A stretch of 64,000 bases of DNA from Onchidella celtica (taxonomy: Eukaryota; Mollusca; Gastropoda; Systellommatophora; Onchidiidae), in contig OZ007570.1 of assembly GCA_963931925.1 (NCBI GenBank), positions 40,530,468-40,594,467 on the forward strand, in the 5' to 3' direction. The translations under genes and the position numbers were made by a program. The notes below the pieces were generated by a model. That model was not told the origin of the DNA and searched no databases. It saw nothing but the letters and a program-made list of their open reading frames with translations. Below, in pieces: positions 21,001 through 41,900 of this stretch; the stretch's first letter is position 1, and the number at the start of each line of letters is the position of its first letter.

Positions 21001-24000
21001 TAACTTAGAGCGCCTGCATGCGGTAGGTAAATATCTTATTAACTGATATTGTTAAACACAGTCTCCACTATTATATTGTTAGTCTTCTTTCTTTCATGCT
21101 GTTCCTGGTTTATTTTATATCTAGTGCAGATTGTGCTGATCACAGTGGTTTTTGAATTTTTAAAATCGGATGATAAATGCAAAAGTTATGACTCTTTCAA
21201 GGTTTCGTAATTGCGCATTTTGTGGCTAGTGTTGTGCGACATTATACACTATCGACATTTTCCATCACTCTGATTGCGATTTTGACTTCTCCTTGGTATT
21301 ATTTGCCATAAACTTTCCCTTCAGAGTGCAAAGATTCATAACCATAAATGTGCTATTAATTTTTTAAAGCAAAATTCTGCAACAAGATCCAGATTTTATC
21401 AGCAGACGTATGCAAATAAGTGTGGCCATACTTTTAATAGATGAGGTACCCAGCATTATCCGGGATAAACCTGTGAACCCAACGATCTATCTCTCTCTCT
21501 TTTTGATCTTCAAAGCTTCCCATATTCTATAGCCTTACAGGCTTACTACAGATTTCATGCACATCAGAGCTCTACGCACTTATTTCTGGTAGGTAAATTA
21601 CCGACACAGAATTGAACACGTAGCCTATTAATATTGTTTCCAGTGCAGTGGGCTTACAAAATGGGGCCAAAACAAAGATCACTGCATTTTAAATTCTTAC
21701 AACTTCTAATTTAAAAATAGGCCTAGGCCTACCTGAAACTTGAATCAACACAGTGGATTGATACAAAAGCAACTGGGCTGGATTAGCCGACACCTATTTT
21801 AATATTTAAGAAAATTTAACTTTAGGCCTACAATTTTTGAAACTCATTTTGGCGGGAGGTCCTCCGCCCGTCCACGCCAGTCAAGAAAACACACTAAAGA
21901 GGGGACTTTTGAGCGTGCATATCAAAAGGTTGGGTTTAGTATTTGTTTGGGACAAACGGGGGGTAGAAATATTTTGGCTGTAGCGTCGAGCAAAAAAAAG
22001 GGCCAAAATTACACTACAATGAATTATTCCCGCCACTATTTTCTTTTATAACAGGATTAGGTCTATGATCTAGAATTTACCTCTTTTATATTTTAGTATA
22101 CTAGAGCCTGCCTCCCATAAGCCCAACCCTGGGTCCTTGTCCCGGGAGGTGGAAACAGGACAAAGTAGGGGATTGCTGGGTTCGGGCGAAGTACGGTGTG
22201 ACCTTGTGTCACTTAGGCGCTACGCTAGCCGTGAAGGCCATCCCGGGTCACCCCGAAACGTCGCTGGCTAACAGGGCTCTGGTGAAATCCTGGCAGCAGG
22301 GGATGGATGAGGACGGAAGGCGACAGAAGGATCTTTGGGCACGGCTTTTGTCTCTCGTGGTTGCGGGCAGAGGATTCCGTTTTTGAAACAATGGCCGGGA
22401 CCAATGCACAGTATGTGCACTGCGCTTTCAGAAAGCAATGGCAGACCACTGGAAGAATTTCTTGCCAAAAACTACAATGAAATGTCACACAAAAGGAAAG
22501 AAAGTTATAGTTCTGTGTCCTCTGAGTCCCCCAGGGAGGGTCGGGACTCAAAAACGACTGGGGAGGGAGAATCCACAACTGCAGAAGGCACCCGTGATGA
22601 CGATACTGGCGTATCTGACGGTGAGTGCAAGAAACAGAGGTGTAGATACTCCTATTCAAAGAAAAGAAAAAGCAAAAGTGTCATCAACATCGGCACCTGG
22701 AATGTTAGGACCATGAAACAAATGGGAAAACTTACACTCCTGTTAGAGGAGCTGAAGGAACTCAGCACGAACATCACTGGACTGAGTGAAGTACGATGGG
22801 ACAAACAGGGCCTATTCAGGACAGAAGATCACACCATCGTATACAGCGGAAACAAACGCGGCATGAATGGTGTTGCAATTATACTGGACAGACGCTTACG
22901 AGACAACATTAGCAGCCATGACGCTATAAGTGATAGAATTGTCACTGTGAAACTTGACACCCAACCCGTGCCCCTGAACATCACACAAGTATACGCCCCC
23001 ACATCTGCGAGCACAGAAGAAGAAATAGAGCTGTTCTATAATGACCTACAATCAGTAACAGACAAAATCCCAAGCAGAGAAATATGCATAATCATGGGAG
23101 ATTTCAATGCCAAAGTGGGAGAGGGTGAGGATCTGGAATGTGGGATAGGACCCTATGGATTAGGAGAACGAAACGACCGAGGAGACATGTTAGCATCTTT
23201 CTGCCATGCAAATGAAATGAGCATCACGAACACTCTCTTTAAACACCCGATGCGAAGAAGATACACATGGATAAACCCTGGAGGCAATCTCCGAAACCAG
23301 ATTGATTACATCCTGATTGACAAAAACTGGAAAACAACTGTGCTCAACCCAAAGACAAGGCCAGGGGCAGACTGTGACACTGACCACATTTTAGTGACAG
23401 CAAAGCTGAGATTGAAAGCCTATAGGAAGAGCAAGCCAAAACCCACCACCAGATTTGACACGGACAAACTGAAAGACCCTGAAATCAGCAATGCTTTTCA
23501 GATCGAAACAGAAAACCGTTTCTCAGCATTACTCAAGGAGTGGTCAGCTGAAGAAAGACACCCAGATACACTGTGGAAAGACATGAAAAGAATTTGGAGT
23601 GAAACAGCTGAATCGAAACTCGGGAAAAGAACGAGGAAAACTCCCAAACCATACATCAGTGAAGAGGTGATAGAGCTTGCAAAAAGAAAGAGCAAAGCCA
23701 GAAAACTTAGTAAACAAGATGAATATCATGCACTGAAGAAGGAAATCCAAACAAAGATCAGAAGAGACAAGAATGCATGGTTAGAAAGAGAGTGTGCAAA
23801 CATAACAGAATGTAATACACAAAGAAAGTCAAAAGAAATGTTTGAACAAATAAGAAAAGTAAAAAAGAGGGATTTCCAACCACAGAACTTGAGTCTGAAC
23901 AACAAAGAAGGCACAACACTGACAAACACAAAAGATGTGCTCTCAAGATGGCACGAATACGGCAAGATGCTGTTTGCGGACAACATCAGACCAGACCCGA

Positions 24001-26128
24001 GGGACCTCCAACAACCAGACTCACAACAGATAGATAAAGAACCAGAACCTCTCTTGGAGGAAGTACAGGCTGCAATAAAACAAATAAAGAATGGAAAATC
24101 CCCTGGATTAGACAACATACCAGGTGAACTCCTGAAACATACCAGCGAATCAGGAATAAAAGCACTCCACCAAATGATATGCAAAATTTGGCAGACAAAT
24201 GAATGGCCAACAGACTGGAAGCTACAAGAATTCGTCATGCTATACAAAAGCGGCAATGTCAAAGACTGTGGAAATTATAGAACCATCGCCCTCATCAGTC
24301 ACACCAGCAAAATCCTGCTCATCATCATACTCAACAGAATGAAATCTAAGGTAGAAGAGGAACTATCAGAATGTCAAGCTGGTTACAGGACCAACAGAGG
24401 AACCGCTGACATGCTCTTCATACTACAAATAATGATTGAACAGATAAGAAGCAATGGAAACGAAGCCTTCATCACGTTCATAGACTACAGCAAAGCGTTC
24501 GACAGCGTTAGGCACCATCACCTGTTCGATATAATGATTAAGATGGGATTCCCGAAACACCTTATGACCCTCATCGCTGCACTATACCACGAACAAAAGG
24601 CAACGATTAGATGGAACAATGAGAACTGTCCATATTTCAACATTGAGAAAGGAGTCAGACAGGGTTGCATACTTTCACCTCATCTTTTCAATATTTATAC
24701 TGAGCAGATCATGAGAAACGCAGACATAGAAGATATGGGAATAAAGATCGGAGGCCGAAACATCACAAACCTTCGCTACGCTGATGACACAGCTCTTATG
24801 TCAGATAACATCACCAGCATGAAAAGAGTGTTGCACAGAGTGGATGAAGCGGGCAAGACAGCAGGCCTACACCTAAATGCTAAGAAAACGAAAGTCATGC
24901 ATACTGGAACAGGGCACCATGAACACCAGGAGATACTAGTAAACAAAACAGCACTAGAAAAAGTGACTGATTTCAAATACCTAGGATCACATAAATCGCA
25001 AGATGGAAGCTGCTCAAAGGACATAAAAACAAGGATAGGAATGGCAAAACACAAAATGGTTCAACTAAACAACATTTGGAAGGATAGAGGCACACCAACG
25101 GACCTCAAAGTGAACATACTTGTGCTTGATCTGGCCAGTCCTACTATATGGTTGTGAAGCCTGGACACTCAAAAAGGCAGACATAACAAGATTGGAGGCA
25201 GCTGACATGTGGCTTTACAGAAGGCTACTCAGAATAAGTTGGACAGAAAGGAGAACAAATACAAGCATCTTAGAACAGCTTGGCACCACCAGAAGAATAA
25301 CACCTGAAATAAATAAAAGAAGACTTGCATACATCGGCCACGCGGCCCGAAACAAAAGCACGGCCCTTATAAGATAAGATAAGATAAGATAAGATAAATT
25401 ATGATATCAATCCTTTAAGGAAAGACAGAAACAAAGAGAAAACAAGGAAGACCACCCATTACATATCACGATAACATCAAGAAAGTCAGCCAGCTGGAAA
25501 TAAGTGAACTAACTAGGAAAGCTAAGGACAGGATTGGGTGGAGGAGATTTTGTCGTGACATCCACTGTAGCAGCTAACATCGATGACGATGAAGCTGACA
25601 GGTGACTAGAGCCTAGTCTATAGGCCTACTTTAAACTATATTCTAGATCTAGATCTAGATCTAGATCTAGATATCTAGGTCTTGACTAGATCTAAGTTCT
25701 AACTTTGCCGGATCACACTAATCACAGTGGGACCACTAGACTAGATCTAGATCTAGATCTAGATTTAGGTCTACATTTCATACTTTTACTATTACGATTC
25801 AGCGGTCATCTGAGCTTGAGCCTTTCGGCATGTTGATATAGCACAGAATTTACATTTGCTACAATATTCAATATTAGCATAGATCTAGATCACGCTAAAT
25901 TTAATGTTTTCACGGAGTGCTTGCACTATCGAAAATAGGTGCACTCGAATATCAACTACGTTTACTTAGAAATAGAGACAACCAGTCAAGTTCACAACAT
26001 GATCTCAGACATGAAGTATAAATTTGATCCTATCACGGTACCAAATAAGCAGGTAATACTGCTGCATTAAATTAACACAAGTGAGAACCTACAGGAAACA
26101 TCCTATCTGCATCCCGAGATAATGCCAT
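1..26128 (-). CDS. PATL1: PAT1 homologue (PATL1/Patr-1), mRNA decapping scaffold; multi-exon gene span, 3' end outside window
   Basis: PAT1 proteins bind the DDX6 helicase, the Lsm1-7 ring and decapping factors in P-bodies and promote mRNA decapping after deadenylation (family knowledge). Here 18 internal exons join in consistent phase (771 codons). In order they encode an acidic N-terminus with the conserved NDETFG motif (19595-19709), a Pro/Gln/His-rich low-complexity middle (14263 to 7825), the hallmark [15 protein letters not shown] ... NPYLDDYYY block (7021-7177), the [10 protein letters not shown] block (5998-6164), then the helical C-terminal domain with [16 protein letters not shown] (2367-2514) and [12 protein letters not shown] (854-928). 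These blocks match the recalled order in human PATL1. The last roughly 80 residues and the stop lie left of the window. The start is the least certain part: see the exon at 26093. DEAF1 begins about 430 bp upstream on the other strand. Confidence 0.93.
383..520 (-). CDS. PATL1: PAT1 exon, C-terminal helical domain
   Basis: 46 codons, phase 0 to 0, acceptor GAAACTTAG, donor TCA|GTAAGT. Starts [17 protein letters not shown] and ends LSLLLHNS, in the place of the PCLLSPFSLLLYHLP segment of PATL1. Confidence 0.88.
854..928 (-). CDS. PATL1: PAT1 exon, [12 protein letters not shown]
   Basis: 25 codons, phase 0 to 0, acceptor TCCTTTCAG, donor GAA|GTAAGT. Ends [16 protein letters not shown], like NLPFLIKKDAQDE of PATL1. 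Confidence 0.94.
929..2366. other. PAT1 intron
   Basis: 1.4 kb. Holds the 44-bp tandem repeat and a locally CpG-rich stretch (1180-1330). Nothing else recognised. Confidence 0.7.
1198..1300 (+). repeat. 44-bp GC-rich tandem repeat
   Basis: GGCCATTATTTTGTCCGACA starts near 1200 and 1244, and a partial third unit starts near 1288. Each is followed by CGCTTAACCGCGGGTCT. CpG-rich, in a PAT1 intron. Confidence 0.85.
2367..2514 (-). CDS. PATL1: PAT1 exon, [16 protein letters not shown]
   Basis: 148 bases, phase 2 to 0, acceptor TTTCAACAG, donor AAG|GTAAGT. Ends in [17 protein letters not shown], equivalent to IRKGKRMVARILPFLS in PATL1, a basic helix of the C-terminal domain. Confidence 0.95.
2858..3627. 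mobile_element. non-autonomous TIR element (CAGTGGAGTC family), degenerate
   Basis: Left end CAGTGGAGTCTGCTTCAAAT after a TA. Right end in reverse complement is CAATGGAGTCCATCTAAAGT. The arms share the motif ...GTGAAC/ATGAACT... and CCTTGGTCCC/CCAAGGGACC. 770 bp inside a PAT1 intron, no coding capacity seen. A pogo/Tigger-like origin is inferred from the CAGTGGA ends. Confidence 0.7.
3827..3894 (-). CDS. PATL1: PAT1 exon, [16 protein letters not shown]
   Basis: 68 bases, phase 0 to 2, acceptor TTTTTTAACAG, donor AACAG|GTCACT. Matches LLLDVEDYERRYLLSLEEE of PATL1, the start of the helical C-terminal domain. Confidence 0.93.
5630..5780. mobile_element. palindromic MITE starting GGGAGTGTTTATT
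   Basis: Arms GGGAGTGTTTATTGGGGCTA and its near-inverse TAGCCTTCATAAC... extend about 38 bases each side of a short loop. It sits in a PAT1 intron. No clear target-site duplication. Confidence 0.75.
5819..5853 (+). repeat. solo arm of the same MITE
   Basis: GGGGAGTGTTTATTGGGGCT followed by ACATATATATGTAGCC, a second partial copy 39 bases after the complete one. Confidence 0.7.
5998..6164 (-). CDS. PATL1: PAT1 exon, [10 protein letters not shown] block
   Basis: 167 bases, phase 1 to 0, acceptor CTACTTTCAG, donor AAAAG|GTTTGC. Contains [20 protein letters not shown] and ends [15 protein letters not shown]1 has [20 protein letters not shown] here. Confidence 0.97.
6509..6638 (-). CDS. PATL1: PAT1 exon ending at a GC donor
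   Basis: 130 bases, phase 0 to 1, acceptor TTATTCTAG. Encodes [15 protein letters not shown] and [14 protein letters not shown]. The donor reads CCAG|GCAAGT. Only this GC donor keeps frame with the next exon (TP-A-QFEG), because the nearby GTCTTT would introduce a stop. Confidence 0.9.
7021..7177 (-). CDS. PATL1: PAT1 exon, conserved KEKDWI...NPYLDDYYY block
   Basis: 157 bases, phase 2 to 0, acceptor CTTTACAG, donor ACA|GTAAGT. Contains [19 protein letters not shown] and [14 protein letters not shown]. The vertebrate counterpart reads ANLMLQREKDWVSKIQ and STDPYLDDFYY. This is the most diagnostic PAT1 segment in the window. Confidence 0.97.
7825..7998 (-). CDS. PATL1: PAT1 exon, Gln/His/Tyr/Arg-rich segment
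   Basis: 174 bases, phase 2 to 2, acceptor GTCATCTCAG, donor CTACAG|GTGATG. Encodes [15 protein letters not shown] and [16 protein letters not shown]. The His/Gln/Arg composition matches the HLHPQHRRLLHQ region just before the conserved block of PATL1. Confidence 0.87.
8731..8823 (-). CDS. PATL1: PAT1 exon, Pro/Gln linker
   Basis: 93 bases, phase 2 to 2, acceptor TTTTACAG, donor AAAT|GTATGT. Encodes [20 protein letters not shown]. Confidence 0.82.
9400..9511 (-). CDS. PATL1: PAT1 exon, proline-rich linker
   Basis: 112 bases, phase 1 to 2, acceptor TGCTTTCAG, donor CCAG|GTAAAT. Encodes [20 protein letters not shown] and [14 protein letters not shown]. Confidence 0.84.
9775..9915 (-). CDS. 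PATL1: PAT1 exon, Ser/Pro-rich linker
   Basis: 141 bases, phase 1 to 1, acceptor CATGACCAG, donor ATGG|GTGAGT. Encodes [20 protein letters not shown] and [13 protein letters not shown], like the PATL1 region rich in SPxQxxR motifs. Confidence 0.85.
11065..11301 (+). repeat. pair of 60-base direct repeats
   Basis: GTCGAAACAAAACAAAGGCA ... GGAGGGAGGC ... AGTATTATTCGATG at 11065-11125 recurs at 11240-11301 with a few changes. Spacing about 174 bases. Confidence 0.8.
11798..12142 (+). repeat. interspersed repeat, copy 1 (inverted relative to 21432)
   Basis: About 345 bases, including GTAAGCCCACTGCACTG, TACCAGAAATGAGTGCGTAG, ATATGGGAAGCTTT and CAGGTTTATCCTGGATAATG. The same blocks occur in reverse complement at 21432-21825. 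Family unknown. In a PAT1 intron. Confidence 0.75.
12678..12789 (-). CDS. PATL1: PAT1 exon, Met/Pro/Gly-rich linker
   Basis: 37 codons plus one base, phase 0 to 1, acceptor GATTTTAG, donor CCAG|GTTTGT. Encodes [15 protein letters not shown] and [13 protein letters not shown]. Low complexity, assigned by phase and linkage. Confidence 0.8.
12985..13329 (-). mobile_element. tRNA-derived SINE, copy 1
   Basis: Read on the minus strand: a tRNA-like head with B-box-like CAGGTTTGATCTCC, then an A-rich/T-rich junction, TTCCTGTCCCTGATCCTATGG, a central CTTAGGCAGTTAAAAGTG-type block and a T-rich tail. Lies in a PAT1 intron, same strand as the gene. Related copies at 49985 and 62020. Confidence 0.75.
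13533..13784 (-). CDS. PATL1: PAT1 exon, [12 protein letters not shown] segment
   Basis: Largest exon, 84 codons, phase 0 to 0, acceptor CATGACAG, donor CAG|GTAAAT. It contains [11 protein letters not shown] and [13 protein letters not shown], short amphipathic motifs typical of the PAT1 proline-rich middle region, then a proline-rich tail. Confidence 0.88.
14138..14263 (-). CDS. PATL1: PAT1 exon, [12 protein letters not shown] segment
   Basis: 42 codons, phase 0 to 0, acceptor TTCACAG, donor GGG|GTAAGA. The [12 protein letters not shown] motif resembles SSIWDGS in PATL1. It is followed by an alanine-rich helix ([19 protein letters not shown]). Confidence 0.85.
15691..15765 (-). CDS. PATL1: PAT1 exon, [15 protein letters not shown]
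   Basis: 25 codons, phase 0 to 0, acceptor AATTTCAG, donor CTG|GTGTGT. Open and in phase with both neighbours. Low sequence complexity, so identity rests on linkage. Confidence 0.8.
16577..16663 (-). CDS. PATL1: PAT1 exon, [13 protein letters not shown]
   Basis: 29 codons, phase 0 to 0, acceptor TTTCACCAG and donor GGG|GTAGGT. It fits the position of the short 'LSKMVIEN' helix of PATL1. Confidence 0.85.
17141..17480 (+). repeat. interspersed repeat with TTTATATAGCGCCC / GGGCGCTTT motif and microsatellites
   Basis: An (AAT)n run, then TGCATTTATATAGCGCCC ... CTCTGGGCGCTTTAAC and (AC)n at 17219-17236, then GGTCTTCAGATGGCGTTTGA and AGAGTGTTCCAGA. This combination is common in marine invertebrate repeats from memory. 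The exact family is not identified. Confidence 0.5.
17967..18109 (-). CDS. PATL1: PAT1 exon, [14 protein letters not shown] segment
   Basis: Phase 1 to 0, donor GAA|GTGAGT. The segment [17 protein letters not shown] lines up with the DDWQEAHERLAELEE region of vertebrate PATL1. The rest is acidic and glycine-rich, ending GYSTATQE. Confidence 0.88.
18110..19594. other. PAT1 intron
   Basis: 1.5 kb, AT-rich, with an A13 run near 18474. No element or gene recognised. Confidence 0.65.
19595..19709 (-). CDS. PATL1: PAT1 exon, acidic NDETFG segment
   Basis: Acceptor TTTTACAG, donor GATG|GTAATA, phase 0 to 1. Encodes 38 residues, starting [15 protein letters not shown] and including [13 protein letters not shown]. 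The acidic 'NDxTFG' motif is the conserved N-terminal signature of PAT1 proteins, in the region known to recruit the DDX6 helicase. Confidence 0.88.
20715..20732 (+). repeat. (CTAGAT)n short array
   Basis: Three CTAGAT units inside a locally palindromic stretch around ATCGATCTAGATCC and CGCCTAGATCTAG. Confidence 0.8.
21432..21825 (-). repeat. interspersed repeat, copy 2
   Basis: Inverted partner of 11798-12142, about 9.3 kb away, in the first PAT1 intron. It contains CAGCATTATCCGGGATAAAC and GTGCAGTGGGCTTAC. Confidence 0.75.
22110..22334 (+). other. LINE 5' untranslated region
   Basis: GC-richer leader between the target-site duplication and the long ORF. It presumably carries the internal promoter, which is inference. 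Confidence 0.6.
22335..25157 (+). CDS. RTE LINE endonuclease-reverse transcriptase ORF, truncated by frameshift
   Basis: 940 codons. The N-terminal ~115 residues are basic and Ser-rich and may start later (the Met at about residue 24 or 27 is possible). The endonuclease and RT catalytic motifs are present. The C-terminus after VNIL is lost to a 2-base deletion relative to the other copy, and the missing [15 protein letters not shown] tail continues in another frame from 25120. The protein is expected to lose its C-terminal domain. Confidence 0.9.
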   Translation: MGTAFVSRGCGQRIPFLKQWPGPMHSMCTALSESNGRPLEEFLAKNYNEMSHKRKESYSSVSSESPREGRDSKTTGEGESTTAEGTRDDDTGVSDGECKKQRCRYSYSKKRKSKSVINIGTWNVRTMKQMGKLTLLLEELKELSTNITGLSEVRWDKQGLFRTEDHTIVYSGNKRGMNGVAIILDRRLRDNISSHDAISDRIVTVKLDTQPVPLNITQVYAPTSASTEEEIELFYNDLQSVTDKIPSREICIIMGDFNAKVGEGEDLECGIGPYGLGERNDRGDMLASFCHANEMSITNTLFKHPMRRRYTWINPGGNLRNQIDYILIDKNWKTTVLNPKTRPGADCDTDHILVTAKLRLKAYRKSKPKPTTRFDTDKLKDPEISNAFQIETENRFSALLKEWSAEERHPDTLWKDMKRIWSETAESKLGKRTRKTPKPYISEEVIELAKRKSKARKLSKQDEYHALKKEIQTKIRRDKNAWLERECANITECNTQRKSKEMFEQIRKVKKRDFQPQNLSLNNKEGTTLTNTKDVLSRWHEYGKMLFADNIRPDPRDLQQPDSQQIDKEPEPLLEEVQAAIKQIKNGKSPGLDNIPGELLKHTSESGIKALHQMICKIWQTNEWPTDWKLQEFVMLYKSGNVKDCGNYRTIALISHTSKILLIIILNRMKSKVEEELSECQAGYRTNRGTADMLFILQIMIEQIRSNGNEAFITFIDYSKAFDSVRHHHLFDIMIKMGFPKHLMTLIAALYHEQKATIRWNNENCPYFNIEKGVRQGCILSPHLFNIYTEQIMRNADIEDMGIKIGGRNITNLRYADDTALMSDNITSMKRVLHRVDEAGKTAGLHLNAKKTKVMHTGTGHHEHQEILVNKTALEKVTDFKYLGSHKSQDGSCSKDIKTRIGMAKHKMVQLNNIWKDRGTPTDLKVNILVLDLASPTIWL
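25120..25577 (+). pseudogene. out-of-frame C-terminal part of the LINE ORF
   Basis: Encodes [20 protein letters not shown] ... [17 protein letters not shown] up to about 25370. It is then broken by five GATAA-like repeats and an in-frame stop, and resumes [20 protein letters not shown] to a TAA at 25575-25577. Confidence 0.85.
25371..25397 (+). repeat. (ATAAG)n insertion inside the LINE
   Basis: About five pentanucleotide units interrupt the sequence CTTATGATATCAATCC seen intact in the second LINE copy. TTAT appears on both sides, so either microsatellite birth or a very short insertion is possible. Confidence 0.8.
25642..25672 (+). repeat. (CTAGAT)n array
   Basis: Five units, just after the LINE target site. 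A second array of four units lies at 25741-25764. Confidence 0.9.
25741..25764 (+). repeat. (CTAGAT)n array
   Basis: Four units of the self-complementary hexamer, about 70 bases after the previous array. Confidence 0.9.
26093..26128 (-). CDS. PATL1: PAT1 candidate first coding exon ([12 protein letters not shown])
   Basis: Twelve codons from ATG to a CCT|GTAGGT donor, ending in phase 0 as required by the exon at 19709. A two-codon out-of-frame uORF (ATGGCGTAA) overlaps just upstream. The SFFGFDTSLP-type N-terminus that I recall for some invertebrate PAT1 proteins is not seen here or elsewhere in the first intron, so this is a best guess. RNA evidence would decide. Confidence 0.35.
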
Positions 26129-26560
26129 GTTTACGCCATTTTGGTTGTGTAGTAAAAATCCTCTAATAAAACACATTTCCGTGCCATCGTTAAAAAATAT
26201 ATAAAAAAACACATAAAATCCCTCTCAGATCACAGAAATATCTGAACAATGTAGTTTAAAATAAATGGATCAATTTCCCATCTAACTCATCAAATATTTC
26301 TCATCTGCTAAAGAGAGGTCAGATTTAGTGGGGTTAAAGAGTTTTGATTCCCCTTCGGTCGATTTTTCCGCCATGCTCCGTGAAAGGCCGGATGTTTCCG
26401 TGATAGACTCAATGAAGGAGTGGAAAATGGTAATTTGTTCCCCAGCCGCAGAAAATATTCACAGTTTGGACTGATGGCATGAGAGTTTTTGATCTACTGA
26501 CCACATGTAACTATCAGTATGTGAGATAGTCGCAAAACAAATGGTTCAAGTGCCCCTGCG
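26129..26560. promoter_or_regulatory. probable divergent PAT1/DEAF1 promoter
   Basis: About 430 bp between the inferred PAT1 ATG (minus) and the DEAF1 ATG (plus). It is not strongly GC-rich and I see no clear TATA box in either direction. Divergent transcription is inferred from gene layout only. An out-of-frame ATG with good context (ACAAATGG, 26541) precedes the DEAF1 start. Confidence 0.5.
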
Positions 26561-26837
26561 ATGTCTGAAGTCGATATCGCCGGAGATCTACCGAATGGTG
26601 ACGATTCCGCCTTCGCCGACGAGCATCAGCATGGTTCGGAAACTCCGCCAGAGACATCAACAGTTGCCGTTTCTTCTCCTGCCAGTGCAATATCAGCTGA
26701 TCATGTTTTTGTTGCAACATCTCAAGGACTTATCAGCGCTCAGCAATTTCAGGAGGCAGCAGCAGGAGGAATTAAAACCACTCATATCGTTATACATAAT
26801 CAAACCCTTGATCAGTTGGCAGAGGCAGGAGGGTTGA
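26541..26837 (+). promoter_or_regulatory. overlapping uORF at the DEAF1 start
   Basis: ATG at 26541 in good context (A at -3, G at +4), 98 codons in another frame, overlapping the DEAF1 ATG by 20 bases upstream and ending inside exon 1. If the transcript includes it, it would compete with the main start. Confidence 0.4.
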
Positions 26838-26996
26838 AAACGCCGACCACTCCCCTTCCACCCCCAACTCCAGCAACCCCTTTGAGTAAGGAGAAGGGAT
26901 TTCGCTATCAATGGGACGATTCCGTCCACCATGAACTTCTGCCTGTGAGATGCAAGCACACGAATGGAGAGCTGTACAAATCAAAATTTGGATCAG
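26561..26996 (+). CDS. DEAF1: DEAF1 exon 1, N-terminus and start of SAND
   Basis: 145 codons plus one base, donor TCAG|GTATGA. Starts [15 protein letters not shown]. Ends with the first SAND strand: [18 protein letters not shown] then [10 protein letters not shown], like YNWDPSVYDSELPVRC of human DEAF1. The ATG at 26561 has G at -3. The upstream ATG at 26541 is in another frame. Confidence 0.94.
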
Positions 26997-29900
26997 GTAT
27001 GAGTGCAGTAGGCTAACTGGTAAGGGTAGTACGGACATGCACATAATTTATGGTGGGACAGAATCTTTACAGTTGAACAAGATTCTAAAAACAATAATAG
27101 TTTTAAACACTTTTCCCTCATTTTACTTAAGTTTCTTTCTACAAGTGCAATGACCATGGCTTTCAGAAATTATATTATAGAGAAGTTTTTCGGAATGGGT
27201 CTCATGGCTAGTTTTGGGAAGAGTGTTTATTTTTCTGGAAAACACTAGGAAACACTCGACGCGAGTAATGCAAATAGTAAAGAGACACATCGCGGATACC
27301 CGCGGGTAATGCAGATGCAAATCCAAAATAACCAATAATAACAAAAGACACTTCGCCAAATTCACAAATTCCTTTAATCGCAAATACTAAATAGACACAT
27401 TCCTGAAAAATCAGGATCAATTATTGTACAAGATGTACAAAAAGCCAGAAAACATAACACGTACAAAATATGTATTCAAAATAATGTCAATAAATACAAT
27501 TACAATATGCAAAAAAAGACAGATATTTATATGGACAGATTGAATTTTTACAATCGACATACTACTGCATGGTAGGATTTGTCCTGACGAGTACCAGAAA
27601 GTTTTGAAAACTAAACAGTAAACACTGAAGTATTTAAACAAAATCTGAAAATTCATCTGATGAATCGAAATCGTGTGTAGGTCTTACTTTCTTGACAATA
27701 GATGTTGTTTTTTCTGCCTGTTTTCGTTTTCTCTGACCAGGTTTTTTCCATTTGGGTTTGGGTTCCACCGCAACCTTCTGTGAGTTGGTGCTCCTTGATA
27801 CAGACTCATTTATTGAAAAAGCATACTTCTGCATGTGTCTGGCCTTCTGCTTTTTGTCTTTTGTAAACCAAATATCTCGCGGCACCCCAAATTTTTTTAA
27901 CTCGTCTGTCAGGACAAATCCCCCCATGCCGCTGATGGCCCTTTGGACTTCCCTGTACTGTGATTCCACCACCATGTGCAGCTTGAGTATTAAGTCCACA
28001 AGTTTCAAAGAACGCCATGAGCATGCCTGCTTTAGCACATGGTTGATGGACTCACAGTTGTTGTTTGTCCATAGGGCGTTATCCAAGCACAACCCGGGGC
28101 GGTCCAATGCCTTGGCATTCTCGATCATCAAAGGAGACAATCTTTCCAATAGCAGTTTAATTTGAGCATTGTCAATGCTATCAATCAGAGACAGAAACTT
28201 ATCCTCTACCTCCACATAGTTGTTAGATGTGGCAACAATACCAGAAGGTGAAAAAATATGCTTGATAAGTTTCTGTCTCTGATCTCGGGGCATGCCGATC
28301 TTATCGACCAAAGCATGCTTAAAGTTTTTCTTGAGATGTTGTGTGCATGCCAGTCTTGGTGACGTGGGAAATGCCAAGGACATGGCCTGACGAAGAGCTT
28401 TCTCTTCGTCACTGCCAAGAACTGGGCACTGCGCACAGCCACCAAGCTTTCCTGACAGGTGGTGCAGGAATAGAAAAAAAGTTTCTCTGTCGCTGTTGCC
28501 GTGGAGAAACATTGGCCCACAGAAAACACAATACATGGCACTTTCTGACTCTGCCTTATTATCAACTGTATGAATGGCATGGTATGTTGCAGTTCTTCGA
28601 CTGCTGCCACTTAGTCAGCAAAAGTGGCTTTGTGGACATCTTGTGGACCCTGTTTTGCTCTAGCCTTGGCATTGTATATTTGCCTTTTGTTGGTTAAAAT
28701 GTTTGACTGCTTCCACCCCCCTTCCATGCCCCCCGATCATCCCAAAGTTGAGAAATTTTACCTTGCACCCTCTTTTTTATGTTGTCTTCGTTATTGACAA
28801 CGAAGTATACATTGTCCTTGGGCCCAATGGGTACCTTTTCCAAACTAATGGAGAGTGAGGCTGAGCTCAACAAATCTAGAAGCACATCCGCGTCCAAAAA
28901 AGCATCACAGGGCAGAGGTTTCCTGCCATCGTCCAGATTTGCTCCACTGCCATCATCACCAACGTCTGCATCATCCGAACTACTAACAACACCAACACCA
29001 TCACCAGCATCACCACAACCACCATTATCAAAAACACTACCATCATCATCATCATCCAGATTTGCTCCACTGCCATCATCACCAACGTCTGCATCATCCG
29101 AACTACTAACAACACCAACACCACCACCAGCATCACCACAACCACCATTATCAAAAACACTACCATCATCATCCAGATTTGCACCACTACCAACACCAAC
29201 AATGTCTGCATCATCCGAACTACTGACAACACCAACACCACCACCTGCGTCTGCATCATCCGAACTACTAACAACACCAGCACCAGCATCACCACAACCA
29301 CCATTACCAAAAACACTACCATCATCATCCAGATTTGCTCCACTACCTTCATCACCAACGTCTGCATCATCCGAACTACAACCAACACCACCACCACCAG
29401 CATCACCACAAACACTACCATCATCAACACCTTCATTGGTTAAGTCAACCATTACAACATCAGGCTGTATTTTTTTCAACACAACAAAGTGGTTTGGTCT
29501 GAACTGAGATGGCGTTTTCGGAACAAATGTGGTGGTCCACATTAAAATGACATCTGATTTTTTTCTTTCAGACACACCTCGCCCAAGCACCACACGGGAC
29601 AAAGGCTCGCTTAAAAAATATGCAGCCTGTGTGGGCGGACAGTAGGACTGGATAGATATATTGAGGGCAGCGCTTATAGCACTGAGAATCATCAAGTCAC
29701 TAAAGCTGCCCAACTTAGTGACATCCTTCATCAGGTCAGCGTACTTGTCGAAAACTAACCTTCGATCATTGAAATGATCAACAAACCGTTCATGTTCATA
29801 ATCGTAATGTCTCCGGTTCTCAATCAATTCAATGGCAGCTAATGTGCGTATAGTGACGTGATAGTTCTCAGTGCTATACAGGGCTAAAGACACGGCCCTG

Positions 29901-32900
29901 AAAAGACAGTTGCCATCTCCAGTCACACATAACGGTGCATGAGTCTCTTTTATAATGGGATGATACTTGGTCAGTATGTCTGAGGCCACGGCATCAACTC
30001 GAGCACTCTGGTGACTTTTCGCGGCGCTTAGTTCTGTGTCTGGTAGCTTCACGTCGTACGTCTCCATGAGGAGCTTCTCAGACCGTGGCATCATGGAATT
30101 TTCTGAATGCTCTGTGGTCAGATCTGCAGATTCTGCGAAAATGAACACTTTTTAACCTTACCTGTAAAGAGATCATTTTTATCAAAGGGAGCTCACTCTC
30201 GAGTGTTTTTGAGTGTTTCCTAGCGTTTTCGAGAAAAATAAACACCCTCTGGGAAAGGCTTTTGATTGCTCTCAGTCTCATGCCTGATGGCACCTTTAAG
30301 TTTAATTGTACTAGTCTTAGTGGTTAATCTCTGAGCCACACATTAACTATAATAATATTCCTATAGAGGATTAAAATCCGGGAGGGAGGGGGGCTGCGAC
30401 CCCGTAACAGCTGCTTCTAAAGTCAGATGCTTTAAGTGAAGATCTTTAAAACCGTACAGTTTGGAATACAGTGGAAACACAATTTCTGCTAAATCAAGGT
30501 CATTTTTTAAAATTAGTTTTTCTTCCTTCTTTATTTCTAGTAAATTTACTGCTAATTCAAGTTCGAACCGCCCCAATTCTGGTAAATTGAACTGATCGTG
30601 CACGCTCATCCTCAGTGTAACTTCTGACTTCCAGTTCCAGCTGCGTCACCATAAAAATCAATTTCCGCAAACACAGTGACATGGGACTGTTCAACAACTC
30701 TTCACTCTTACACTTAGCAGCGATCGACGGGGAGGGTGGAGGTGCAAAAAAAAAAATGATGCAATGGGTAGGCTGCAGGGCCTTCATCTTGTGTGTCTGT
30801 CCCACGAAGTGAGAAACATGCCGCGGAGGGTGGCAGTGGTGCAGGTGGGGCCAATGCATGCAGCGTGATTCTGCCCCAAGCCAATGACCCATGATATCAG
30901 CCAACAACATGCATATGCGTGATGGTGCTTGCATTATGACCAGTAATGAGTAAATTTATTGATATGGTGGGTAACCACAGAGTATACCGTACAACATAAA
31001 TTACACACAGTAAAACCACGAGCCTCTTAGTGTGTCCATCATGCTCATCTAGAGCCATTCTACTCCACACTTAAGTAATGCTTGCTAAGCTAAACAACAT
31101 CACATGACTTTATTAAGCGTAAAAATTGTGGTAAGGCTAAGGTCCTGCAATTTGAACATCATACGAAGCAGAATGTCTTTTAATTAATCGGTTGATGACA
31201 TCACAGTCACACACAATACCTGCTGTCACTGATAAAGACAAGGAACAGAGTTCACTGGCCAGAACAGTTCTAGAAGCCTAGGTCATTCAATTGGCAATGC
31301 TTTTTTGTTTTACTGCTACAGTACGGTCACTTCTAATGAAAAAATAATCAAAAGATGTCATGACTCATACAGGTTCCTGTGTGGCTTTTTTTATGTGTGT
31401 ATCATATTGGGGAGGGGGAAGGGGTTCCGCAAGGGGATGTAATTACATGTATGGTATGGGGCAAACAGCATGGTTATTCTCTGCTCAGAGGTAAATTGAA
31501 CTATAATCCAATTCCCGACGAATTTGAATTGTGTGGACTCCACTGTATGTCATTAATTTTACTGTAATTGAAAGTGAGATGCATTCAGAAGTCTCAAAGA
31601 TTTTTTTTACAGTAATGAAATATTCCAACTGGGGGGTAAGGTCCCCATAAGGACATGACTGAAGGAGAAGCCATGTGCAGGGGATTGCAAGAGGTCAGAG
31701 ACCCCCCTCCCGGTGAGAGTTGGTCTCCTCTTTTTTAAAAATTAAATTGAAATTTTGTTAAAGAGCAGCGATTAACTGCAGTGTACAGTGCACACCTGAT
31801 ATAATATCAACATGTAAGGGTCCAGACATTTTGTGTTGATATAAGAGAAACCTCTTTAAGATGGTGTTCTTTCATTGCAAAGGTGGGTTACAACAATAAT
31901 AGCAAGTAATAGTGCTGTATTTTGATGTAAGGGGAAGCAGCCATGCCCTGGTCAAAATATTGATAGTTATTTCCCTTGGTCAGACTAGGTTTAGACAGCA
32001 TGTGGGTGTATGCGTAAACGCATCACATGTATACAAAGACGCACACAACACCCCTCCTCCCCTCGCTGACCGTAGTCCAAACTAGACACAAGCCTCTTTG
32101 TTTCCCTTTCAGCGGAGACACCAGGTTACATGTGGTTTCTTAAGTTTGTTGTGCCCACCACTCCTCTCCTTACCTGCTACCCAGTGTGTGACACACAAAG
32201 GGCAAGTGGCTCGCCTCTTACTTCTAGTTCGAACAAGCGGGGAGGGACGAGGCCATTTCTTGTGCACAAAAATAGGGCCTGCACTGCCTAGCGAGTTTGA
32301 TCGACAAGTCAAAAGGAGAGGATGTCGATATAGAGGAATCTATTTTTTACTAACAAATAAAGATTTTAAAAAACACGTACTTAGTAAATCATGTCGATAA
32401 AAGAGAAATGTCTACATAAGCGATGTTGATATAAGTGGTGCGCACTGTATATGAAAAGATGCAATATTGCATGAGTCACATGTGGAAGTGTGTACTTTAA
32501 AAATAGGATGATAAAAATGTCATAGTAAACATTACTTTACAAATTACATGCCTGTAGTGTATCAGGCTATATAGTTGCTATTTTCTTGTCTTTCTGAAAC
32601 CAACAGGAGGCAGGGGTAAATGTATCAAAGGCCCAAACAGCATTTGGTATACACCTAATGAATTTGAGGCGTTTGCTGGAAGAGCAAGTAGCAAAGACTG
32701 GAAACGCAGTATCCGATATGGTGGACGAACTCTGCAGTGTTTGATAGAAGACAACATTTTACAACCACATGCCACTTCATGTACATGTGCATCATGCTGT
32801 GATGATGAGGCAGTGGTAAGTTAATTTAATATAACTTGTATTTGTCACATTCCTATGACCTGCTTGTAAAGCAGTTTTCAACTTCCAGTTCCATCAACTG

Positions 32901-35900: not shown

Positions 35901-38900
35901 TGGGCTCGAGTACGCAAGCACATGTAGGTTGGGTCTTGCTCGCGCATTGTATCATAAACAAAGGCAGAACGGGGACACAGTTTGTGAAGTGGTTTCATTT
36001 TACACTGTATTTGGCAGTATTTTGCTTTTGGTTTTTTGCATTTTTACACACGTACAATTACCTTTGGTGGTTTCAACTACAGGTAGATCTAGGTCTAGAT
36101 TGGAGCTCTTAAGAATCATCTAACTCTAAACGTAATTTGCAATCATGAATGAACTAGCTAAGCCCTAAAGTGATGTCAAAAATCGAAATCGAGAGCCCAT
36201 GAGCCGCTAAACAATAGAATTAGGCCTATGAGAACAAGGTGGACATGGCCTGTGAAGTTGCTTCAGTTCTAGATCTGCTACAACTGTTATTTTTTATGCC
36301 TAACAATAACATGATTAGTGATCATGGATAGATAATCTGTAGCCTTCACAATCCAAACCATGAGGCCATAAGTAGACATTCACGGCAAAATATTGAAAGG
36401 AATTTACATTTACATAAATTATTGAACTTTTGCAACAAATATGCATTTTGGAAGTTAAGAGACATGTCATAGTGACTTACATATTTCACAATCACATGAA
36501 GGCAAATCTGACATTGTTCAGCACTGCAAGGACAATATGAAAGAGTTATGAATTCTCAAAACAACTTTCAGGCTAGTCAATGAGGTCTAACCTTTGGAAA
36601 CAGAAATAGTGGTCATGAACATAGTAATGTTTGTTGCCTGCTTTTTTATACCTTAGAGAGAATAATATTCTATATTGTGACTAGGTAAGGAAATAGTGCT
36701 TTTTCATTTGGGGGGTGGGTGGGGGTCAGTAACAGGAGCCTGTTTTTTGGATTTTGGAAAGTTGGCGCTATGAAGTAAGTTACTCTGTCAGTCATGTGGA
36801 ATTTACTTGCTCTCCCAGTACTCTAGGGCAGGCTTGGTCAGTAAATATCATTAATTTCAAGATTTTAATTTGCAAGGCCCCACAGCATGTTTTTTTTGCA
36901 AAATTATCTGGATCTAATCTGGATGTAAATTCAATGCATATTTTCAGAATTATAGTTTAAATATTTTGACACTTTAAAGTGAATGCTGGCAATCTTTTCC
37001 TCTTTTCCTTTCTTTAAATAGGCAAAGCTTAAAATTCCTACCCACCCAGTGCATGTGTGTGTGGGGGGGGATATGAAAACACCAATACCGCGTTTGGCGA
37101 AAAAAGTTCAGAAAATTTTGTCAGTGGTTACTTACAGGTCTAAGAAGAGTATTATACATATTCGTTGTTGAAAAATTCTCGGCCGAGAAAATGTGTTTTA
37201 GTGTTGTTTTATTTTTAACAAATTATGGAGAGAGAAAAAAAAAAAGAAAATGACAATATGATGTAGGGCATTTTGAAGTAAAAATAATGATGAATTTATA
37301 TTTTCAATTTCAATCAGACGCTGTGGTAATGACACCTATTGCTCTTGCTCAAGGCAGTCAGAAACCAGCAGGTCAGCTTATTACAATGGATGTGATGGAG
37401 CAAAAGAATTGGTGGCAGCTGGAAGAGGTGATGTGCCTATCAAAAATATTTTTTATATGGTAAAAGGCTTAAACTAGGACAAGGAGCTTGAAGTCTTCAC
37501 ACTTGATACTTGTAAACTCGCTAAGAGAATTAGTTCACAGAATATGCGAAAGATGAATGGTTGTATATTTGTGTTTTTTTTTCCACAAAGCCAGCTTAAA
37601 TCATATCTAGATTCATATTATTGCATTTCAGTATACCAACCATTTCTGCTATTGGCAGATTTTTGGAAAGTGGGACATTGCCGTTGGGTTGTGTCCCCCC
37701 TTTGCCCATTATCAGAATTTGGATGTAGCATGTAGCTCAGTCATGACTAACACTTGTTTCTTGCATAAACAGAACATATTTTATGTTGTTCAGATGGCCA
37801 ACAACCTCTTGCAGCAAGCCCAGCAACTGAAAATCATGATAGAACAAGTCAAACAACAGAGCTTGATTGCAAAAGACAATGCTCTTCAGCAGCAGAGGGC
37901 TCAGTTTGAAAAAGAGAAACAAGAGGTTTGTATCAGTGGTTCAGATTCATACTTAAATTCATAGATCTTCTGTTTATATCTTTGAAGGATTGTTTTTTGT
38001 CTGAGAGATCGAGAAGAAACCATTGTGGTTTTATCTTTTAAAAAAAATAATTTTTTTTTCTTTTAAGCCCATATTCATTCATCAGGAAGGAGATTTCTAC
38101 TTTAAAATTTGGATAACAGTTTTACCATATAGTCAGCAAAGGGACTTTGTCCAACTAACAATAGAACATTTACACCAGAAGGAAAAAGTGTTTATTGTTG
38201 AATACAGACTGTTAAATGAGGAGCAGTGAGAATTGAAATGATTTGGTAGTAATTGTGAAAGTTGTGGTAAAGTGATCATGTTCTAGGCTTTATGGTTGCT
38301 AGCCTTTAACATTAAATTTACAGTTTCATGAGGTAAAATAATCCTCCATATATATATTACTCCCACAGAATTCGAAAACAAAAACATCTGAAGTTAAGTA
38401 AATGTTCAAGATCTCACAAAAATTACTGGTAATTCACAAAGTTGGAATGCTCTCTTATATTTAGCAAAATCTTGTCCTGGAGTCCACAAAAAACAAACAA
38501 AATGAGGATGGTTCTTATAGAAATTCAAGTTGAATCATTATATATAGGTTTCATTCTGCAGCTCAGCTGTAAACGTCACCTCACCTGTCACCTGTCGGCT
38601 TCATCGTCATCGATGTTAGCTGCTACAGTGGATGTCACGACAAAATCTCCTCCACCCAATCCTGTCCTTAGCTTTCCTAGTTAGTTCACTTATTTCCAGC
38701 TGGCTGACTTTCTTGATGTTATCGTGATATGTAATGGGTGGTCTTCCTTGTTTTCTCTTTGTTTCTGTCTTTCCTTGGATTGATATCATAAGGGCCGTGC
38801 TTTTGTTTCGGGCCGCGTGGCCGATGTATGCAAGTCTTCTTTTATTTATTTCAGGTGTTATTCTTCTGGTGGTGCCAAGCTGTTCTAAGATGCTTGTATT

Positions 38901-41900
38901 TGTTCTCCTTTCTGTCCAACTTATTCTGAGTAGCCTTCTGTAAAGCCACATGTCAGCTGCCTCCAATCTTGTTATGTCTGCCTTTTTGAGTGTCCAGGCT
39001 TCACAACCATATAGTAGGACTGGCCAGATCAAGCACTTAAGTATGTTCACTTTGAGGTCCGTTGGTGTGCCTCTATCCTTCCAAATGTTGTTTAGTTGAA
39101 CCATTTTGTGTTTTGCCATTCCTATCCTTGTTTTTATGTCCTTTGAGCAGCTTCCATCTTGCGATTTATGTGATCCTAGGTATTTGAAATCAGTCACTTT
39201 TTCTAGTGCTGTTTTGTTTACTAGTATCTCCTGGTGTTCATGGTGCCATGTTCCAGTATGCATGACTTTCGTTTTCTTAGCATTTAGGTGTAGGCCTGCT
39301 GTCTTGCCCGCTTCATCCACTCTGTGCAACACTCTTTTCATGCTGGTGATGTTATCTGACATAAGAGCTGTGTCATCAGCGTAGCGAAGGTTTGTGATGT
39401 TTCGGCCTCCGATCTTTATTCCCATATCTTCTATGTCTGCGTTTCTCATGATCTGCTCAGTATAAATTTTGAAAAGATGAGGTGAAAGTATGCAACCCTG
39501 TCTGACTCCTTTCTCGATGTTGAAATATGGACAGTTCTCATTGTTCCATCTAATCGTTGCCTTTTGTTCGTGGTATAGTGCAGCGATGAGGGTCACAAGG
39601 TGTTTCGGGAATCCCATCTTAATCATTATATCGAACAGGTGATGGTGCCTAACGCTGTCGAACGCTTTGGTGTAGTCTATGAACGTGATGAAGGCTTCGT
39701 TTCCATTGCTTCTTATCTGTTCAATCATTATTTGTAGTATGAAGAGCATGTCAGCGGTTCCTCTGTTGGTCCTGTAACCAGCTTGACATTCTGATAGTTC
39801 CTCTTCTACCTTAGATTTCATTCTGTTGAGTATGATGATGAGCAGGATTTTGCTGGTGTGACTGATGAGGGCGATGGTTCTATAATTTCCACAGTCTTTG
39901 ACATTGCCGCTTTTGTATAGCATGACGAATTCTTGTAGCTTCAAGTCTGTTGGCCATTCATTTGTCTGCCAAATTTTGCAGATCATTTGGTGGATTGCTT
40001 TTATTCCTGATTCGCTGGTATGTTTCAGGAGTTCACCTGGTATGTTGTCTAATCCAGGGGATTTTCCATTCTTTATTTGTTTTATTGCAGCCTGTACTTC
40101 CTCCAAGAGAGGTTCTGGTTCTTTATCTATCTGTTGTGAGTCTGGTTGTTGGAGGTCCCTCGGGTCTGGTCTGATGTTGTCCGCAAACAGCATCTTGCCG
40201 TATTCGTGCCATCTTGAGAGCACATCTTTTGTGTTTGTCAGTGTTGTGCCTTCTTTGTTGTTCAGACTCAAGTTCTGTGGTTGGAAATCCCTCTTTTTTA
40301 CTTTTCTTATTTGTTCAAACATTTCTTTTGACTTTCTTTGTGTATTACATTCTGTTATGTTTGCACACTCTCTTTCTAACCATGCATTCTTGTCTCTTCT
40401 GATCTTTGTTTGGATTTCGTTCTTCAGTGCATGATATTCATCTTGTTTACTAAGTTTTCTGGCTTTGCTCTTTCTTTTTGCAAGCTCTATCACTTCTTCA
40501 CTGATGTATGGTTTGGGAGTTTTCCTCGTTCTTTTCCCGAGTTTCGATTCAGCTGTTTCACTCCAAATTCTTTTCATGTCTTTCCACAGTGTATCTGGGT
40601 GTCTTTCTTCAGCTGACCACTCCTTGAGTAATGCTGAGAAACGGTTTTCTGTTTCGATCTGAAAAGCATTGCTGATTTCAGGGTCTTTCAGTAAACATAC
40701 AGGACTTAAAAGGTTAATTGTTTCTTTCATCTACGTCACCCAAACTTGTGATGTTGCATCTCTGCCACATGGTGTGCAATAGCTGAGCATGTGCACTCTT
40801 AAAGATAAGCTGTACCGGTAATCTGAAAAGAAGACTTATCACTCCCGATAAAACAAAACATATGGCCTTGGAACTTCTGATGAAAAATGATATTGATAGT
40901 TGTCATAATGCAATATGTAATAATAACTGATAATCAGTGACCAGGTTCCACTGGTTTGATAAGTGATAGGCAGTAAGTTTTAAATATATAATTATGAACT
41001 TCATCATTTCCAAGAAGATTAACAGCCTTAAAGTAGCAAGGCTGTGATAGAAGAAGTCGTTGTTCAAGTCTAGCCTTCCGAGTGAAGTTTTGTCCGCTGG
41101 AGTTTGGTAGATAGTGTAACAAATACTGTTACACTGACTGACCGAAAAAGAGGTTTGGGAACTGGTTGCAGTGGCTAAGTGACAATATTTTGTGGGTGTA
41201 GATTACTGTTCAACACACATTATGCAAATAAACAGCTTGAAGCTTGTACAATGTTAATATTTTCAGTTGCCAATGCACTGAATTATGATAATTAAGAAAC
41301 TATACCGAATAAAGAATCTGCATTTGTAAAAAGGTAGATTTTGCGGATGTTTTTGCATTCCCCAAATATTGACAGTTATGTTTCATAATTCCACTTTTTA
41401 ATGTCCTGCTTAATTTCTTTGCCCTCTCCTTCTGTTACATTTCACGTTTTTTATTTCATTTCACAGGCCCTCAATGCCACACGTATTGAAGCACAGATGA
41501 ATTTGTCACGGGTATTAATGGAGGAAAGATCTCAAAGAGACATTATGGTTCAGCAAGCATACTCACAAGCTAGAACTGAACTGCAAGAGAAGATGGATTC
41601 AGTCACCGTCATTTCTGATGACAAGGTTGACATTTAATTTGTTTATTTGCCGAGGTACCCAATGTTGCCCTAGACTGACCTACTTCAGGGCATCTTTCTC
41701 TTTTCTGACTACTTTTCTTAATTAATATTCATTTTGCATTGTCACGGTTTACAAAGAATGGCCTGAAAGTGTATAGAGAAATTAAAACATCATACTTTGA
41801 AGAGCTGAATTCTCCTAGAATGGTTTATCAGTGCAATTAATCATTCAGTCAATCGCAAGTCACAATAAAAAAAAAAATAGTGGGCTTTCTTCCTCACACT

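Follow-up and report, generated by a model that had tools for sequence, protein, structure and literature searches.

OTU-bearing transposons as such are already known. MuDR-6_HM, a cnidarian element of group 14 in Table 1 of Dupeyron et al. (2019), is entered there with one open reading frame (ORF) and, as other motif, 'Ovarian Tumour Gene' (PMC6446971); HM stands for Hydra magnipapillata (PMC2836005). Ginger1 transposases carry an OTU or Ulp1 domain at the C-terminus, and OTU domains in Helitrons and Ulp1 domains in Mutator elements are on record as well (PMC2836005). Helitron deubiquitinases have also been described, with suggested roles in shielding proteins on which transposition depends, or in helping transposons past a restriction on their inheritance through the male germline, and transposon OTU domains are noted there as untested for activity (PMC9741609). 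Here we analyse a 64,000-nt stretch of the genome of Onchidella celtica (contig OZ007570.1 of an assembly of 1.14 Gb in 43 contigs; hereafter the window), which contains a Mutator-type transposon with an OTU domain. This element is an internally deleted copy of an OTU-MULE (Mutator-like element) family. We consider it likely that the OTU domain of the family is an active deubiquitinase acting in cis on the transposase, and that the fusion has been retained for this reason.

The window element shares with MuDR-6_HM the combination of a Mutator-like transposon and an OTU motif beside the transposase. MuDR-6_HM is represented by a single table row in which neither a terminal inverted repeat (TIR) nor a target duplication is indicated, whereas the present family comprises several lineages as well as short derivatives, with TIRs and duplications of 8 bp, and the two are likened by description only (PMC6446971). 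Ginger1 likewise combines a DDE transposase with an OTU cysteine protease in animals, but its transposase is Gypsy-integrase-like and its OTU domain C-terminal (PMC2836005), whereas the present family joins an N-terminal OTU domain to a Mutator-type transposase. Helitrons and Helentrons with an OTU or viral-tegument-like deubiquitinase are mobile elements carrying a deubiquitinase-type domain too, but are rolling-circle elements without a DDE transposase (PMC6431247, PMC9741609). The Ulp1-bearing Mutator elements mentioned above are Mutator transposons with a cysteine protease of the ubiquitin/SUMO pathway (PMC2836005); unlike OTU, Ulp1 acts on SUMO and belongs to another protease family.

The window element is bounded by inverted arms (27220-27257 and 30211-30248) that pair over 38 nt with 92% complementarity, and 7/8 bases of its two flanking octamers are identical, in agreement with the ~37-bp inverted ends and near-identical 8-bp flanks reported in an initial annotation made from the window sequence alone. 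The OTU domain of ORF1, in which two consecutive in-frame ATG codons start from 30094, matches Pfam PF02338 with 27.6 bits (E 4.7e-6; cut-off 23.3) over profile positions 2-85 of 128, with the His box outside the matched part. Both boxes named in that annotation are present in the window, the catalytic Cys in DGNC (29917-29906) and the NHF His box in PNHFV (29497-29483). Members of the MULE superfamily are recognized by a D-D-E triad with a CxxH motif between the second D and the E. On the same strand as the OTU domain, ORF2 contains the previously noted GSDEE (28416-28402) and NNCES motifs, the latter within WTNNNCES (28071-28048), together with CTQH (28347-28336); its Pfam matches to MULE PF10551 (E 0.001) and Transposase_mut PF00872 (E 7.6e-4) are both below cut-off. 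The coordinates of the element are collected in the table below.

Features of the window element, its deletions relative to the copy on contig C13, its host frame, and the open single-frame fusions found elsewhere in the genome
Feature	Position	Strand	Basis or remark
Whole element, internally deleted OTU-MULE transposon, family A	27221..30247 (3,027 bp)	coding strand (-)	inverted ends and likeness to C13 copy
TIR at 3' (transposase) end	27221..27257	(+)	inverted-repeat match, genome-wide pairs
TIR at 5' (OTU) end	30211..30247	(-)	inverted-repeat match, genome-wide pairs
Target-site duplication TTTGGGAA	27213..27220	(.)	sequence reading
Target-site duplication TCTGGGAA	30248..30255	(.)	sequence reading
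ORF1, 485 codons	28694..30151	(-)	OTU domain, acidic repeat linker, ~75 residues past linker (transposase start)
OTU region	29432..30088	(-)	Pfam OTU match inside; used as genome-search query
Asp/Gly/Ser-rich linker	28922..29434	(-)	tandem repeats, unit ~123 bp
ORF2, 326 codons	27634..28614	(-)	MULE transposase C-terminal part with second D, CxxH, E
Candidate 5' splice donor ACAG/GTAAGG (slash marks the junction)	30160..30161	(-)	sequence comparison; common to C13 copy
Deletion junction	30084..30089	(-)	1,388 bp of C13 gone: most of apparent 5' intron and some following exon bases
Deletion junction	28695..28695	(-)	361 bp of transposase N-part gone; frame stops just after
Deletion junction	28525..28528	(-)	172 bp gone, including first catalytic Asp motif (GVDKTLNLG in C13)
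End of similarity to C13	27257..27260	(-)	3' non-coding stretch of C13 up to its TIR gone from window copy
Host open frame, 3' end a partial SAND domain (26927-27004)	26525..27016	(+)	likely donor after 26996
Single-frame fusion, 981 codons	C13:50.53M		
Single-frame fusion, 934 codons	C10:4.95M		
Single-frame fusion, 990 codons	C1:101.17M		
Single-frame fusion, 1253 codons	C7:37.69M		

A DNA search of the genome with the window element (40 of 771 candidates scored) revealed one other long copy, on contig C13, whose individual segments show 94-99% identity to the window element (98% for the longest two), with a lower value in the repeat linker. The C13 copy encodes in a single frame of 981 codons an OTU domain, an acidic repeat linker and a transposase, in which a WDDRGAW region, GVDKTLNLG, GSDEE, CxxH and WTNNNCES can be read; the two ORFs of the window were therefore once one protein, as the initial annotation had supposed. 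Its OTU domain also exceeds the PF02338 cut-off (25.2 bits), and it is flanked by a perfect 8-bp target duplication, GCTTTTTT. The first in-frame ATG is codon 34, and because the residues upstream of it are alike in other lineages, translation probably starts in an upstream exon; candidate splice junctions, judged by eye, give no in-frame join. The transposase coding region of the window copy contains two 20-nt arms that form a perfect inverted repeat around a loop of 60 nt (28184-28203 / 28264-28283); this repeat is perfect in the C13 copy too.

The C13 copy measures 14,377 bp from end to end, or ~5.1 kb without a block of 9,223 bp inserted in its 3' part (L009/L081, at about C13:50539657-50548879). 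This block encodes an 887-codon MULE of the ZSWIM1-3 kind (Pfam MULE 1.4e-12, above cut-off). We considered the 14.4-kb element with its two transposase genes as a composite transposon and rejected this, as the inverted arms of the block (44/51 positions matching) and its 9-bp duplication TATTGGAAA show it to be a nested ZSWIM-type MULE.

Comparison with the C13 copy corrects the view that the window transposase is merely worn, since 361 bp and 172 bp of it are deleted. The 361-bp piece, named from its place only, is presumed to be the DNA-binding part. Because this piece of the N-part and the first catalytic Asp are missing, the window transposase should not work. The window copy is an internally deleted, non-autonomous Mutator-type transposon, and any movement of it would depend on a transposase provided in trans. 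Its OTU domain differs from that of the C13 copy by 3% at the protein level.

Searching the genome with a 21-base end pattern and allowing up to two mismatches produced 36 matches, against 11 for a reversed control. Twenty of the 36 are exact and form ten convergent pairs, which belong to the copies in the window and on C13 and to eight units ~430-460 bp long, so that the inverted ends of the window element are not a chance occurrence. The eight short derivatives (L073-L080) have common ends and no coding sequence, as expected of non-autonomous elements, and the two that were compared with the C13 copy also share pieces of its non-coding sequence; their target duplications are perfect, spanning 8 bp in seven cases and 9 bp in one. 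One of them (L079) lies inside an abundant repeat. Its flanks, joined with one target copy into a 139-nt query with the junction at 74, are matched with 100% identity over positions 1-119 or 1-120 at all 40 places scored (of 428 candidates); these places are empty sites, and the ends and duplication are therefore correctly read there. The correspondence between ends and empty-site junctions sought in the initial annotation is thus demonstrated for this derivative and not for the window copy, whose insertion site is unique in the assembly. Units with the terminal inverted repeats of the family have been shown to move, making target duplications of 8 bp and once of 9 bp. Another derivative, L080 (C17:38804630-38805210), is inserted in an apparent THAP-domain coding sequence.

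A protein search of the genome with ORF2 returned 67 matches (77/77 candidates scored) and one with the OTU region at least 86 (150 of 278 candidates scored), which merge by place into 51 transposase loci and 79 OTU loci. At 34/51 transposase loci an OTU match precedes the transposase in the same orientation, at a distance of up to 6 kb, where the chance expectation is ~2e-4 per locus; within 13 kb, no OTU match with a different order or orientation was seen at any of the 51. The possibility that other copies lack the OTU part, which the initial annotation had held against its own proposal, is thus not borne out by most coding loci. All five boxes (OTU Cys and His; D, D and E) occur in a single frame in 4/38 stretches, which represent four lineages; the remaining stretches are broken or incomplete as examined, so that a common frame for OTU and MULE is confirmed in these four and not in the others. 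Together with the position of the OTU match at the 34 loci, the three single-frame fusions outside C13 further support descent from one polyprotein. A supposed giant fusion in a '1972-aa frame' with an OTU match at C5:12.17M was discarded as an artefact of a stretch that is mostly N. A scan of viral contigs with the transposase alignment gave 26 pattern matches and no confirmed relative.

A second family, B, consists of the C10 copy together with 15 further stretches whose longest piece aligns with that copy at 95-99%; two of the 15 (C14, near 50.67M) may belong to a single copy as its two halves. Because 13/15 of these stretches are 98-99% alike to the C10 copy, the sequence comparison suggests that family B moved recently. 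Among the three copies for which the left flank was fetched, 8-bp duplications are perfect in C10 and C2 and match at 7/8 bases in C5. Phantom-type Mutator elements have a foldback structure. The ends of the present elements, built of 20-base tandem units in family B and of ~30-bp tandem units in C13, and their 8-bp duplications recall Phantom and other foldback-like Mutator elements. Phantom differs in being listed, in the table consulted, with FLYWCH, SWIM or no zinc finger and with no OTU domain (PMC6446971).

Alignment of family members across lineages shows that the catalytic residues are largely retained. The OTU Cys is present in 22/24 aligned rows and the His in 19/20 rows reaching it, at 33-56% protein identity between lineages; the first catalytic D (GxDKTFNLG type) is found in 17/18 rows reaching it, the window copy being without it, and the second D (GSD[DE]E), the CxxH and the E (WTNNxxE) in 9/9 aligned members. 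The clade has the D-D-E triad with CxxH of the MULE superfamily, together with TIRs and with target duplications (8 bp, once 9 bp) in the 8-11 bp range of that superfamily; its Cys (DGNC) and His (NHF-type) boxes are those of the OTU family, whose PF02338 profile is matched above cut-off in the window and C13 copies. Pfam MULE is matched at E <= 0.1 by 9/9 aligned members (best 2.4e-6) and Transposase_mut by 6/9, these being E-values only and not cut-off scores. In trees of the OTU domain and of the N- and C-parts of the transposase, read for broad agreement, C7:37.69M joins C1:101.17M in all three.

Substitutions were compared for each part over the 21 pairs formed by seven representative lineages. 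Per site, replacement differences amount to 0.29-0.49 in the OTU domain, 0.28-0.50 in the transposase N-part and 0.28-0.47 in the C-part, and because they are alike in all three parts, OTU and transposase appear to be constrained to a similar degree; synonymous differences (0.73-0.93) are saturated, and no ratio is given. Between the window and C13 copies we counted 4 synonymous and 6 replacement changes in the OTU domain and 4 and 9 in the transposase C-part, and pooled ratios of family B against the C10 copy (13 pairs each, with the changes of C10 itself entering 13 times) are 1.50 for OTU, 1.03 for the transposase N-part and 0.60 for the C-part. For the dN/dS comparison called for in the initial annotation, changes are too few within families and synonymous sites are saturated between lineages; the accompanying claim that OTU is better preserved than the transposase holds for the damage in the window copy only, since the seven lineages are similar and the OTU ratio of family B is if anything higher.

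The window element apparently sits antisense in an intron of a plus-strand SAND-domain gene, possibly DEAF1, downstream of the frame listed in the table. Elsewhere in the window, two near-identical long reverse-transcriptase-like frames in opposite orientation (22311-25157 on the plus strand and 38616-40730 on the minus strand) are probably copies of a long interspersed nuclear element.

The long protein of the family begins with the OTU cysteine protease, continues with the acidic repeat linker and ends in the D-D-E transposase with its CxxH motif. Transposition would be by cut-and-paste as in other Mutator elements. Judged from its sequence, the OTU part would be an active deubiquitinase. 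Working in cis, it would target the transposase or the transposase complex and would spare either the transposase itself or the repair proteins at the break a ubiquitin-dependent removal; such protection may be the reason why the fusion persisted while the clade diversified. The short derivatives would be mobilised in trans by intact members of the family.

Several observations weigh against this reading. No OTU match was found at 17/51 transposase loci, although some matches may have been missed, 150 of 278 OTU candidates having been scored; seven of the 17 were examined, and C18:25.62M and C4:72.15M extend to about the end of the linker without an OTU domain, the sequence of the other five being cut off before that point. 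The OTU Cys is lost in C16:8.20M and C10:1.10M, and neither the window protein nor that of C13 reaches the cut-off of the Pfam MULE and Mutator models. Within families, the small number of substitutions does not allow selection to be shown, and the pooled OTU ratio of family B is the 1.50 given above. Sequence matches to OTU chains in the PDB are weak (E 0.055 and up), and a fold of the window OTU domain alone with a single-sequence model was discarded (mean predicted local distance difference test, pLDDT, 35; predicted template modelling score, pTM, 0.28).

The OTU domain might instead counter ubiquitin-based host defence in trans, deubiquitinating for instance silencing or germline factors and not its own transposase, and a related idea has been proposed for Helitron-encoded deubiquitinases (PMC9741609). 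A general counter-defence module would be expected to be joined to other, unrelated transposase-type proteins, as OTU domains are in this genome (see below); yet fusion into a single polypeptide favours action at the transposase complex, and no host target is known. Although the present data do not separate cis from trans action, we regard the trans alternative as unlikely. It is much less likely still that the protease cuts the fusion to free a mature transposase. The known targets of OTU enzymes are ubiquitin linkages and not linkers such as the present one, and while the linker between OTU and transposase is long, variable, acidic and repetitive, it differs between the window and C13 copies, leaving no fixed site evident (cleavage sites were not searched for).

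The OTU domain could also be a captured fragment of a host gene, carried as passive cargo as in Pack-MULEs. Mutator elements elsewhere take up gene pieces (PMC6431247), and the genome is rich in OTU frames, a census with the OTU model, in which 150 of 171 candidates were scored, having found at least 53 matches with E <= 1e-4. Given that the N-terminal place and the order of the domains are constant across lineages, that the OTU catalytic boxes are conserved and that replacement differences are as low as those of the transposase, we find passive capture highly improbable. Scarcely credible, finally, is a domesticated host gene derived from the OTU part of the window copy, whose intact frame of 485 codons selection would have maintained. 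In its favour, this frame is open, and through the deletion at 30084-30089 an in-frame ATG has come to lie directly before the OTU domain; against this, the domain has diverged by just 3% in protein from that of C13, the few changes between the two say nothing on selection, the copy is antisense in an apparent intron, and no second copy of the deletion derivative was found in the DNA search (40 of 771 candidates scored) or in the end-pattern search. Action of the OTU domain in cis on the transposase to which it is fused remains our preferred explanation.

OTU domains are joined to other transposase-type proteins in the same genome. On contig C13 (L084, C13:41473500-41477800, minus strand), one open frame places an OTU domain N-terminal to a piggyBac transposase (PF13843, 2.7e-68; OTU model 0.0012, below cut-off), and frames of 941-942 codons with an OTU match occur at three places at least, this one included. 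On contig C4 (L083, C4:65430500-65435000, plus strand), an OTU domain lies at the C-terminus of a transposase-like protein (OTU model 0.016, below cut-off; no transposase model match), and frames of the same length, 1014 codons, with an OTU match occur at no fewer than four places, both counts referring to the 150 of 278 candidates scored. We call both domains OTU because they also match the C13 OTU region (2.3e-10 and 1.3e-7, respectively, in a small set). Eight of the 53 census matches fall in 650-codon frames, which look like another multi-copy OTU-bearing element. It is quite possible, if somewhat short of probable, that OTU domains recur, as an accessory favoured by selection, in animal transposases unrelated to one another, being in this one genome N-terminal on a diverse Mutator clade and on piggyBac and C-terminal on a third transposase-like protein.

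What is new here is the anatomy of OTU-MULEs, their diversity of lineages and the OTU-piggyBac fusion in the same genome. An arthropod MULE survey (PMC13359780) mentions neither OTU nor protease or peptidase, and PMC10294476 no OTU; 'OTU' in PMC6875170, considered as a possible protease, means operational taxonomic unit. OTU-MULEs other than MuDR-6_HM, or an OTU-piggyBac, may already have been published, Repbase Reports lying outside the literature covered. The results turn a one-line table entry for one cnidarian element into a defined clade for which the ends and target duplications are established and both short derivatives and four open fusions in a single frame are at hand, which makes the question of why animal transposons carry deubiquitinases testable. 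The presence of an OTU-piggyBac fusion beside OTU-MULEs in one genome suggests that the protease matters to transposition generally, beyond one lineage, and a recurrent OTU accessory, if confirmed, would imply that several transposition systems gain from the removal of ubiquitin.

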